From Pyrinomonadaceae bacterium (lineage in GTDB: Bacteria > Acidobacteriota > Blastocatellia > Pyrinomonadales > Pyrinomonadaceae), in NCBI GenBank assembly GCA_013812905.1, contig JACCSP010000195.1, positions 1 through 42,828 on the forward strand: a stretch of DNA of 42,828 bases. The letters run 5' to 3'. Shown here piece after piece: positions 19,831 through 23,161 of the stretch (its first letter is position 1; each line of letters opens with the position of its first letter). The position numbers and the translations under genes were made by a program. Under the pieces are notes generated by a model. That model was not told the origin of the DNA. It was given only the letters and a program-made list of their open reading frames with translations, and searched no databases.

Positions 19831-20051
19831 GAATAGGGAAAGGCAACAAAACTCCGCGGCACTCAATTAAAATATAACCCACGCACCTCCCCAAGGGGGT
19901 CAAGCCCGAGGTCGCTAGAGTAGTTTCCTCGGACCTTCGAACTTGGCGACTAAAGGAAATCAAAAACTCCCTGGATAAGAAGCGCTGACCAGCCTGTCCG
20001 AACCCCTTTGAGGAGCTGATTTCATAACGTGTTTTATGCCAGATCGTCCGC

Positions 20052-20080
20052 TTGATCCCATACGAACTGTGTGTTAGTCT
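20052..20080 (+). promoter_or_regulatory. Possible dnaA promoter
   Basis: TTGATC (20052-20057), a 17-base spacer and TAGTCT (20075-20080), about 190 bases before dnaA. The -10 is identical to that of the proposed rpmH promoter. The DnaA-box pair lies between this promoter and the gene, which would allow autoregulation. Confidence 0.35.
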
Positions 20081-20155
20081 CCGGGCTCTTGAGGACGACT
20101 GCCGCTAAGTACTTGATAGATATATAGTTAAACCATCACCTTAGGGGTTGGCTGG

Positions 20156-20189
20156 TTTTCCACAGAGCTGAGGAAAACCCTGTGGAAAA
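20156..20189. promoter_or_regulatory. Inverted pair of DnaA boxes
   Basis: TTTTCCACA on the plus strand (20156-20164) and the same box on the minus strand (TGTGGAAAA, 20181-20189), 16 bases apart. Each differs from TTATCCACA at one position. The overlapping GGTTTTCC/GGAAAACC arms also make an 8-base inverted repeat. They sit about 80-110 bases upstream of dnaA. Confidence 0.75.
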
Positions 20190-20269
20190 GGCCGCTGCGG
20201 GAACCATACGGCGGCCCCTCTTCGTTCTTCTCTTGTAAGGCTGATTGTACAAAGGAAAGCTGCTCTGAA

Positions 20270-21715
20270 ATGACTGGTGTTGTTTGCGAAGACGGCATAT
20301 GGGATTGCATTCTCGAATCCATCAAAACGAAGCTTAACCGCGAGACCGTAGAAACGTGGTTCAATGCGATTGAATTTCGAGGGATAGATAGAGTAGGTTC
20401 GGTGGTCCGTCTTTGCGCGCCGAATTCCGTGGTTAGGGATTGGGTAAAACACAACTATTCCGAATTACTTGAGCAGTCCTTATCCGAGGTGAGGCTCGCT
20501 GGATATAACTTGGATTGGGAAGTAGCAAACGTCCCCGCCCAAAGTCTCACTGCTCTGGATACGGTCGGTAACGATGTGGCTGACGAGTTGGCTTCCGCGG
20601 GTCAATCCGGCGGACGCTTTGGCCTTAGAACAAATCGAGAATCCCCTCACTTCGCTACTGCGGTTGCCTGCGCCCCTTTAAGCTATATTCCAGAGCCATC
20701 TCTCAACTCAAAGTACTCATACGACAGCTTTGTTGTCGGTTCCTGCAATCAGTTTGCTCATGCGGCATCGTTGGCCGTGGCGGAGGCGCCTGGAAGGACC
20801 TATAACCCGCTCTATCTTTATGGCGGAGTTGGCTTGGGTAAGACCCACCTGATGCACGCCTGCGGTCAAGCGATACAGAAGAGTAACCCCCACCTAAAAT
20901 TGTGCTACTTATCGTCAGAGAAGTTCATGAATGAGTTAATTAGCGCCATTCGCTATGACAAGACACATGGGTTCCGCGAGAAGTACAGATCCGTCGATGT
21001 ACTCTTAATCGATGACGTCCAGTTCATGGCTGGAAAGGAGCGTACTCAAGAAGAGTTCTTTCACACATTTAATTCCCTTTACGACCAACAAAAGCAAATT
21101 GTTATTAGTTCCGACTGCCCTCCGCGAGAGATCCCGACGCTTGAAGAAAGACTGCATTCCCGCTTCGAGTGGGGACTGATAGCTGACATCGAGCCTCCAG
21201 ATCTTGAAACTAAAGTTGCTATCCTGAACCGCAAAGCCGAGATCATGGGAGTGACCATCCCCGGTGAAGTCGCCCTCTTTATTGCTACAAGAGTCAAGAA
21301 CAACGTTCGTGAACTTGAAGGGTCTCTTGTGCGTCTTATAGCTATTTCTTCGTTGCGCGGGGACAAGATCTCAAAGATTCTGGCGCAAGACGCAGTTCGC
21401 AACATAGCCGGCGAGGAGGAATCCGGGGCAGTCACGATTCAACATATTCAAAAAGTCGTGGCTGACAACTTCAAGATGAGGGTCGAGGAGTTAATCTCAA
21501 AGAGCAATGCCCGGCAGTTCTCTCGACCTCGGCAAATCGCTATGTATCTTTGTAAGAAGTTAACTAAACACAGTTATCCAGAGATTGGGAGGGCATTCGG
21601 TGGTAAGCACCACACGACCGTTATTCACTCCTTTGCTAAAATCGAATCCCTAAAATCTCATGACTCCGGACTGCAAAAGCTCGTCAACGATCTTTCTCAG
21701 CGCTTTGAGAAATAA
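20270..21715 (+). CDS. dnaA: Chromosomal replication initiator DnaA
   Basis: A 481-residue AAA+ initiator that binds DnaA boxes and opens the origin. Domain I (about 1-80) is followed by a variable linker (to about 140). The AAA+ domain has Walker A GGVGLGKTH (185-193) and Walker B VDVLLIDDVQF (242-252). Domain IV carries the DnaA-box-binding signature (PRQIAMYLCKKLTKHSYPEIG, then GGKHHTTVIHS). The ATG at 20270 has AAAGGA a little far upstream (about 13 bases), so initiation may be weak. It is followed by a 330-base origin segment before dnaN. Confidence 0.98.
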   Translation: MTGVVCEDGIWDCILESIKTKLNRETVETWFNAIEFRGIDRVGSVVRLCAPNSVVRDWVKHNYSELLEQSLSEVRLAGYNLDWEVANVPAQSLTALDTVGNDVADELASAGQSGGRFGLRTNRESPHFATAVACAPLSYIPEPSLNSKYSYDSFVVGSCNQFAHAASLAVAEAPGRTYNPLYLYGGVGLGKTHLMHACGQAIQKSNPHLKLCYLSSEKFMNELISAIRYDKTHGFREKYRSVDVLLIDDVQFMAGKERTQEEFFHTFNSLYDQQKQIVISSDCPPREIPTLEERLHSRFEWGLIADIEPPDLETKVAILNRKAEIMGVTIPGEVALFIATRVKNNVRELEGSLVRLIAISSLRGDKISKILAQDAVRNIAGEEESGAVTIQHIQKVVADNFKMRVEELISKSNARQFSRPRQIAMYLCKKLTKHSYPEIGRAFGGKHHTTVIHSFAKIESLKSHDSGLQKLVNDLSQRFEK

Positions 21716-21814
21716 AAAGTGGGCCAAGTCTTATACAGGTTTTACGCTCCGATTTTCCGCGGGTACGAGGCGCTTAAAACAAATATCACAGGCCTCGGCG
21801 TGTTCGAAAATCCC

Positions 21815-21834
21815 AAAGCGCTATGGCTTTTTTT
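21815..21834 (+). terminator. Weak terminator-like hairpin after dnaA
   Basis: AAAGC (21815-21819) pairs with GCTTT (21826-21830) and is followed by a run of T to 21834. The stem is only 5 base pairs, so termination would be partial at best. Confidence 0.3.
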
Positions 21835-21860
21835 CAGTAACAGTCTCCTTTGATAATATC

Positions 21861-21869
21861 TTATCCACA
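21861..21869 (+). promoter_or_regulatory. Consensus DnaA box
   Basis: A perfect TTATCCACA. It is the only perfect copy I found in the window and lies about 65 bases before the trio-like tract, downstream of dnaA. Confidence 0.85.
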
Positions 21870-21933
21870 GCCGGTTTGGAGTTTTAAGCGTTGAGCCTAA
21901 TAAGTTTAGTTAGTTTTCCTCAGATCAACAGGG

Positions 21934-21954
21934 TACTATTACTACTACTAGTAT
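21934..21954 (+). promoter_or_regulatory. DnaA-trio-like tract (candidate unwinding element)
   Basis: Seven consecutive triplets TAC, TAT, TAC, TAC, TAC, TAG, TAT follow a short GGG, and AT-rich sequence (TAAAGATACTAAT) continues downstream. DnaA-trios are repeats with A in the middle position that load DnaA on a single strand at the unwinding site. The match to the known pattern is close. Confidence 0.65.
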
Positions 21955-22045
21955 TAAAGATACTAATTTCTTAGGCAACAGGAGAAGAAGGTCATCGTAA
22001 ATTTTTTCCTGAAGAGAATTTAAAGACTTAAGGAGAGTGTAAGTC

Positions 22046-23161
22046 ATGCAGTTCGTCGTTAGTAAACAGAACCTTCAAAAAGAACTCGGTTTCGTGCAGG
22101 GAGTGGTCGAGCGGAAGAATACCATTCCGGTTCTTTCAAATATTTTGATTGAGTCCGTTGGGGAAACCACAATCAGGATCACCGGAACGGACCTGGACGT
22201 AAGCATTCGCTGTGATATGGACGCAGAAGAGATTAGTACTCCCGGTTCTATCTGCGTACAGGCGAGAAAACTTTTCGAGATTGCCAGACTGCTCCCCGAT
22301 GCCCCAGTAAGTTTTAAAAAGGAAGATAACGACTGGGTTACAGTGAAATGCGATCGCTCGAAGTTTAAGATGGTTGGCGTGGGTCGCGATGCATTTCCGG
22401 AAGTACCTACTTTTAAATCTGCCCCTACAAAAATTCCCGCCGGTGTTTTAAAGGCGCTAATCGACCGAACAATATTCGCGATAACTCAGGAAGAATCGAG
22501 ATACACACTCTCCGGCGCGAAGTTCATCTTGGATAAATCAGGGGCCAAGATGGTTACTACGGATGGCCACAGGCTCGCCTATGTGGAAAGAAAGGCGGTC
22601 GCGAAAAACGGCGCAACAGAGAACCTAGATACGTTAATACCTAGAAAAACACTGGCTGAGTTGACGAAGTTGACGGCCGGCTTTGACGGTGAGATTAGTT
22701 TGGGAATGGATGAAAACCATATCTACTTTGAAGTGGGCTCAAGACTATTAATCTCCCGAATGCTCTACGGGCAGTTTCCAAATTACGAGATGGTAATGCC
22801 CAAGAATAACGATAAGTCGGTCGAGTTTGATAGTGCTCTTCTTAATCAAGCAATTCGGCGTGTGGCTCTCATGGCGGACGACCGCTCGCACGCCATCCGC
22901 TTTCATCTTGAGCCGAATCAATTAGTCATTAGTTCGCAGAACGCCGAGGAAGGAGAAGCTCGCGAGACTATTCAGGCTGAATATTCTGGAGAGGAGACCG
23001 ACATCGGATTCAACGCGCAATATCTGCAGGACTTCCTGAACGTGATGGGTGATGGCAAGGTAGCTTTTGAGTTCAAAGACGGAAACTCCCAAGCCCAACT
23101 TCGCCCAGCTGAGAGCGGCGACTACGAATATAAATATGTCGTGATGCCAATGCGCATCTGA
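22046..23161 (+). CDS. dnaN: DNA polymerase III beta subunit (sliding clamp)
   Basis: A 371-residue ring-forming clamp that tethers the replicative polymerase. Three clamp domains are recognisable: the N-terminal domain starts MQFVVSKQNLQKELGFVQGV, the middle has LSGAKFILDKSGAKMVTTDGHRLAYV, and the C-terminal domain has FNAQYLQDFLNVM and ends YVVMPMRI, the standard clamp end. The start has a strong AAGGAGAG site. Length is typical. A strong hairpin follows before recF. Confidence 0.98.
   Translation: MQFVVSKQNLQKELGFVQGVVERKNTIPVLSNILIESVGETTIRITGTDLDVSIRCDMDAEEISTPGSICVQARKLFEIARLLPDAPVSFKKEDNDWVTVKCDRSKFKMVGVGRDAFPEVPTFKSAPTKIPAGVLKALIDRTIFAITQEESRYTLSGAKFILDKSGAKMVTTDGHRLAYVERKAVAKNGATENLDTLIPRKTLAELTKLTAGFDGEISLGMDENHIYFEVGSRLLISRMLYGQFPNYEMVMPKNNDKSVEFDSALLNQAIRRVALMADDRSHAIRFHLEPNQLVISSQNAEEGEARETIQAEYSGEETDIGFNAQYLQDFLNVMGDGKVAFEFKDGNSQAQLRPAESGDYEYKYVVMPMRI

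Follow-up and report, generated by a model that had tools for sequence, protein, structure and literature searches.

The dnaA–dnaN neighbourhood of the 42,828-nt stretch of DNA analysed here, which we refer to as the window, raises the question of whether it holds a chromosomal origin, and if so, how the duplex would be opened there and a helicase directed to each strand. Translations of the open reading frames give the order rnpA on the reverse strand, then dnaA and dnaN on the forward strand, followed by recF- and gyrB-like ORFs, and the closest named relatives by dnaN (92–95% identity) are MAGs labelled Pyrinomonadaceae bacterium, which identifies the host as a member of Blastocatellia, an acidobacterial class from soil. 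The original prediction placed the origin of an acidobacterial chromosome here, with dnaA flanked by DnaA-boxes and the DnaA-trios preceding dnaN, to be checked by GC-skew and by conservation in relatives; conservation supports it, and the GC-skew is consistent with it but weak. The cumulative GC-skew of the window has a local minimum or turn at about 20–21 kb. A 1.145 Mb contig from a same-genus relative stands in for the draft assembly of the window; with roughly two thirds of it covered by sampling, its cumulative skew declines towards a broad and weak minimum at ~720–960 kb and rises afterwards, and dnaA lies inside this minimum at 834.6 kb. Because the skew is weak, it supports the position of the origin but does not pin it. 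The upstream pair of DnaA-boxes and the trios are kept in relatives, and the trios and the box nearest to them are conserved in position in dozens of these. The dnaA–dnaN gap is most probably the unwinding core of the chromosomal origin (Table 1). Our literature searches on acidobacterial replication origins gave nothing relevant.

Table 1. Coordinates in the window of the features discussed in the text.
Feature	Position	Strand	Remarks
DnaA-box-like TTTTCCACA, left arm of the inverted pair upstream of dnaA	20156..20164	+	1 mismatch to TTATCCACA
DnaA-box-like TTTTCCACA, right arm of the inverted pair	20181..20189	-	1 mismatch to TTATCCACA; inverted-repeat fold z = -3.2
dnaA	20270..21715	+	481 aa; retains the equivalents of B. 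subtilis I190 and R264
Perfect TTATCCACA, distal box	21861..21869	+	Not conserved; not the trio partner
Trio-proximal DnaA-box TTTTCCTCA (TTTTCCACA in most relatives)	21914..21922	+	Conserved position, 2 mismatches
Second, degenerate tandem box position (AGATCAACA here, ATTTCCACA in much of the family)	21922..21930	+	
GC-rich link GGGTA (GGCC in most relatives)	21931..21935		
Primary DnaA-trios	21936..21956	-	Top strand CTA TTA CTA CTA CTA GTA TTA; the trios are read on the bottom strand
AT-rich stretch between the two arrays	21957..21975		Presumed bubble; putative function
Mirrored trio-like array, CAA CAG GAG AAG AAG	21976..21990	+	Weak version of the family's TAG TAA TAG TAA AAG
dnaN	22046..23161	+	371 aa

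A basal unwinding system (BUS) is defined as a DnaA-box no more than 16 bp from at least three NAN triplets (PMC8287927). In the window the trio-proximal box, which has two mismatches, is separated by a 13-nt spacer from seven consecutive trios with a central A (3'-NAN-5'), read as NTA triplets on the top strand, and box and trios thus fall within the limits of that definition (no more than two mismatches, 0–16 bp to the first trio, three or more trios). The register of the trios is kept across relatives, in which the first five trios are conserved while the sixth (GTA) and seventh (TTA) are particular to the window. The consensus of the relatives can be written as TTTTCCACA, tt or aa, TTTCCACAGGCC and (CTA)x5, and the same module is found in the majority of 80 distinct dnaA–dnaN gaps, with a spacer of 12–13 nt between the first box and the trios that is inside the published peak. 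In an alignment of 58 sequences the middle base of the five conserved triplets carries 2.00, 2.00, 2.00, 2.00 and 1.87 bits, and such near-invariance is expected if DnaA reads the central A on the other strand.

A degenerate box–spacer–trio pattern has a single match in the 3.79 Mb assembly, exactly at this gap, with no matches on the reverse strand and none for a reversed-pattern control; a stricter pattern, CACAGGNNCTANTANTANTA, had no matches in the genomes tried. Lone boxes with one mismatch are not enriched in the window (15 found vs 19 expected), and as single boxes occur at chance frequency it is the arrangement which is significant rather than the individual boxes. Structurally, the window DnaA is closest to the B. 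subtilis DnaA of BUS cryo-EM entry 8BTG, which together with the retained equivalents of I190 and R264 suggests that the protein is equipped for this kind of opening. The module resembles the incC / oriC2 BUS of B. subtilis (DnaA-box#6/7, GC-rich link and trios) in its tandem boxes, link and in-register NTA triplets, in their strand and polarity, in the AT-rich stretch which follows and in its site between dnaA and dnaN, but differs in the box consensus, which among the relatives is TTTTCCACA and in the window takes a more degenerate form, and in having a mirrored trio-like array on the opposite strand at a fixed distance. We are confident that the box–trio module is a standard BUS, of a kind already known and new for this organism.

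The perfect box and seven triplets that had been noted downstream of dnaA are both present, but they do not belong together: the box is 66 bp from the trios, above the 16 bp limit (PMC8287927), and is not conserved, with TTATTCACA at its position in one of the three closest relatives (L003) and the box lost in the other two (L004 and L005). The trio-proximal TTTTCCTCA and the opposite-strand array had both been overlooked.

The boxes of the gap differ across the family. Many relatives have a dense array of 7–10 TTTTCCACA boxes. Decay in the subclade of the window (21861–21922 in the window, and L003–L005) has left no more than one strict box of this array, and the trio-proximal box there has drifted to TTTTCCTCA or TTTTCCTGA. 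A change in DnaA domain IV was rejected as the cause of this drift, as the region of the recognition helix does not differ from that of relatives. In many Pyrinomonadaceae gaps (L014–L020, L041, L053 and their relatives) the DnaA-boxes are near-constant in position and orientation, at gap coordinates of about 23, 79, 124, 150, 170–184, 196 and 235, and this constancy suggests a fixed higher-order DnaA assembly.

The inverted DnaA-box pair noted upstream of dnaA is present, and sits within a perfect inverted repeat of 10 bp (TTTTCCACAG...CTGTGGAAAA, region 20150–20195) with a strong fold. The inverted TTTTCCACA pair is kept at an offset of ~25 bp in four relatives (L004–L007), and across much of the family it belongs to a cluster of three boxes. 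DnaA-boxes therefore flank dnaA on both sides and unwinding signals are found on one side only, as in the bipartite origins (oriC1 and oriC2) of Bacillus, Clostridioides and Helicobacter, and to this extent the proposed Bacillus-like two-part origin stands, although its pairing of box and trios was wrong. In contrast to those origins, the upstream side here consists of a single inverted pair with a putative role, where many other members of the family have three boxes, and the pair may be part of the origin, an operator or autoregulatory site of dnaA, or both.

What sets the gap apart from the BUS of B. subtilis lies beyond the trios. In Blastocatellia there is a second trio-like array, 5'-TAG-TAA-TAG-TAA-AAG-GC, on the opposite strand ~25 nt past the conserved trios and facing them, which we refer to as the mirror. 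In the alignment the trios are followed by 20–28 nt of AT-rich sequence and then by TTAG-TA(A/T)-(T/A)AG-TAG-TAA-AAG-GC on the top strand, a block of TAG-type NAN triplets. A DnaA-trio of 3'-GAT-5' reads 5'-TAG-3', and the block is therefore a trio-like array opposite to the primary trios.

The mirror was spotted post hoc in an alignment of related sequences, in which the run of TAG-type triplets scores z = 14.6 over dinucleotide shuffles compared with 4.1 for the reversed polarity (58 distinct gaps). Within each triplet conservation peaks at the central A, the columns having 1.16, 1.29, 2.00 and 1.37 bits with weaker neighbours, and since conservation collapses to ~0.1 bit a few bases downstream, shared ancestry alone is insufficient to explain it. 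The 3-nt periodicity contrast of the mirror is 0.77, compared with at most 0.35 in 12 realigned shuffles. The distance from the end of the primary trios to the 3' end of the mirror is 41 +/- 1.9 nt, a spread far narrower than the 75 nt from the first trio to which the search was bounded, while the distance from the mirror to dnaN varies between 23 and 875 nt (33 strong cases). The mirror was found again in families f2, f3, f6 and f8, in gaps mostly gathered after the hypothesis had been formed (z = 6.9, 0/1000 shuffles; this value is indicative, as the set includes one f1 newcomer and the tails end shortly after the array). Same-strand templates also score above shuffles (z about 5–7), partly because TAGTAG yields GTA in another frame, and the column data show that the conserved frame is the A-centred one.

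The signal of triplets in trio phase on the opposite strand is clear for the class and weak in the window, where the copy has p = 0.027 alone and begins at a distance of 40 nt from the first trio. In the three nearest relatives the NAG phase is held with other letters (AAG-AAG-GAG-TAG, CAG-AAG-CAG and TAG-CAG-CAG), and a clear mirrored array was not seen in several members (e.g., L088, L300 and L147). We found no DnaA-box beside the mirror (the best match has 3.54 mismatches vs 3.65 in shuffled sequences), whereas the box of the primary trios has a mean of 0.54 mismatches to TTATCCACA or TTTTCCACA. Lacking a flanking box, the mirror is not a second complete BUS and cannot be loaded like a standard one. 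That a conserved mirrored array occurs in Blastocatellia nevertheless seems to us highly likely from these comparisons. No description of an opposite-strand trio array was found in the BUS and DnaA-trio literature examined.

The two arrays can be combined in one mechanism. DnaA would bind the tandem boxes beside the GC-rich link and its oligomer would be guided onto the bottom-strand trios, opening the AT-rich stretch as in B. subtilis (PMC6669920, PMC8287927), and in Blastocatellia the far side of the opened region would be bounded by the top-strand array with its opposite polarity. A bubble at ~40 nt from the first trio would leave the mirror single-stranded so that DnaA domain III could capture the top strand, with DnaA reaching the mirror by direct filament transfer or from distant boxes. 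The open complex of B. subtilis is ~40 nt (PMC13326638), equal in size to the distance from the first trio to the start of the mirror in the window. The two opposed DnaA assemblies would expose both strands and position one helicase on each for two forks. DnaB-type helicases travel 5'->3', such that a top-strand helicase placed beside the array would move to the right and a bottom-strand one to the left, as bidirectional replication requires.

We give the whole of this explanation, in which BUS opening is combined with a DnaA-captured mirror that positions the helicases, a probability of roughly one half. DnaA as the reader of the mirror, and the mirror as the guide of the second helicase, are our best guess, and the odds that DnaA reads the array to set up the second fork are close to, or slightly short of, even. 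The fullest version, with two opposed trio arrays ~25 nt apart, one per strand, and DnaA on both specifying both helicase loadings without DnaD, is put forward tentatively.

In the Bacillus oriC, the DnaD recognition element (DRE) is likewise a sequence element proposed to steer the second helicase to the other strand, but it lies directly opposite the primary trios as their complement and has DnaD as its reader, whereas the mirror is a separate array ~25 nt further on in a genome with no credible DnaD. PF07261 (DnaB_2) hits in the genome are marginal and the one examined (G003, L180) is in a NusA-like protein, and a DnaD homologue was rejected as the explanation for the second strand. DciA is present in the genome. 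The eTrio of Thermotoga maritima, with three TAG repeats, is similar in that TAG repeats apart from the box-proximal trio are captured single-stranded by box-bound DnaA; however, eTrio and trio as described lie in one unwinding element and on the same strand (PMC10316083), whereas the second set in Blastocatellia occupies the opposite strand and has reversed polarity.

The placing of a second helicase opposite the DnaA oligomer has been described as unresolved (PMC10201434, PMC10721633), and bacteria without DnaD have been named as an open case (PMC10201434). The second-helicase instruction has a concrete candidate in this conserved trio-like array of opposite strand and opposite polarity, which lies where the expected bubble would have its far edge. 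If this is correct, bacteria without DnaD would have a way to bidirectional initiation that is encoded in the sequence, and published scans, which look for one trio array beside a box, would miss box-free arrays such as this. The hypothesis is open to existing BUS unwinding assays.

Among the other explanations, the one which survives best is that the box–trio module is the whole of the unwinding signal and the downstream block a melting or spacing element with no sequence-specific reader. The primary module fits the published BUS definition by itself, strand opening in B. subtilis requires nothing further (PMC6669920), and the mirror is weak in the window and missing from some relatives, but a non-specific AT-rich element would not give an A-centred 3-nt phase, a preference in polarity or a fully invariant column next to saturated flanks, and we consider this explanation unlikely, though it has a real chance of being right.

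It is less likely again that the mirror is read by something other than DnaA, either as a site for another single-strand reader such as DciA, a helicase-loader partner or SSB, or through its complement as a DRE-like TnnT site. In B. subtilis DnaD reads TnnT opposite the trios (PMC10201434) and the complement of the TAG repeats is TnnT-rich, and both the presence of DciA and the missing box would suit such a reader. Set against this, DnaD was not credibly found, and the conserved phase and central A fit the specificity of DnaA itself.

The CTA and TAG repeats are mutually reverse complementary and in some species 9–12 nt can pair exactly, which raises the possibility that the two arrays are arms of an inverted repeat extruded on underwinding as a hairpin or cruciform, or form a structured RNA upstream of dnaN. 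However, the pairing of native arms exceeds that of arms exchanged among species by very little (6.54 vs 6.36, z = 1.75; for the longest exact complement, 5.7 vs 5.4 nt) and the single-strand fold of the window copy does not improve on shuffles (z = -0.13; the fold of L016 breaks off within the mirror and carries no information), and we have rejected the hairpin as very improbable. Least probable of all is that the block is a promoter or ribosome-binding site for dnaN, which its place between the genes and the purine-rich look of AGGAGAAGAAGG in the window might suggest, but which we ruled out because its distance to dnaN varies while that to the trios is fixed, a promoter scan at the block gave no promoter-like match, and dnaN has its own AAGGAGAG just upstream of the start.

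DnaA capture of the mirror, our preferred explanation, would apply within a restricted range. Most dnaA–dnaN gaps from other acidobacterial classes had no recognisable BUS in our scan, and the class-level finding therefore does not extend to the phylum. Outside Blastocatellia the mirror is rare; it was seen by eye in three gaps (L153, L154 and L171) of one other phylum, and a second further phylum had no clear mirrored array, suggesting that the mirrored design is either a speciality of Blastocatellia or patchy. In these three gaps, which belong to the phylum of L100 outside Acidobacteriota, the primary trios are followed on the top strand by TAGTAATAATAG, TAGTAGTAATAATAA or TAGTAGTAAG. In an acidobacterial lineage outside Blastocatellia (L110), the gap has (CTA)n and then (TAA)n and TAATAGAGGATTAGTAGGA near dnaN, which is possibly another version of opposed trio arrays.
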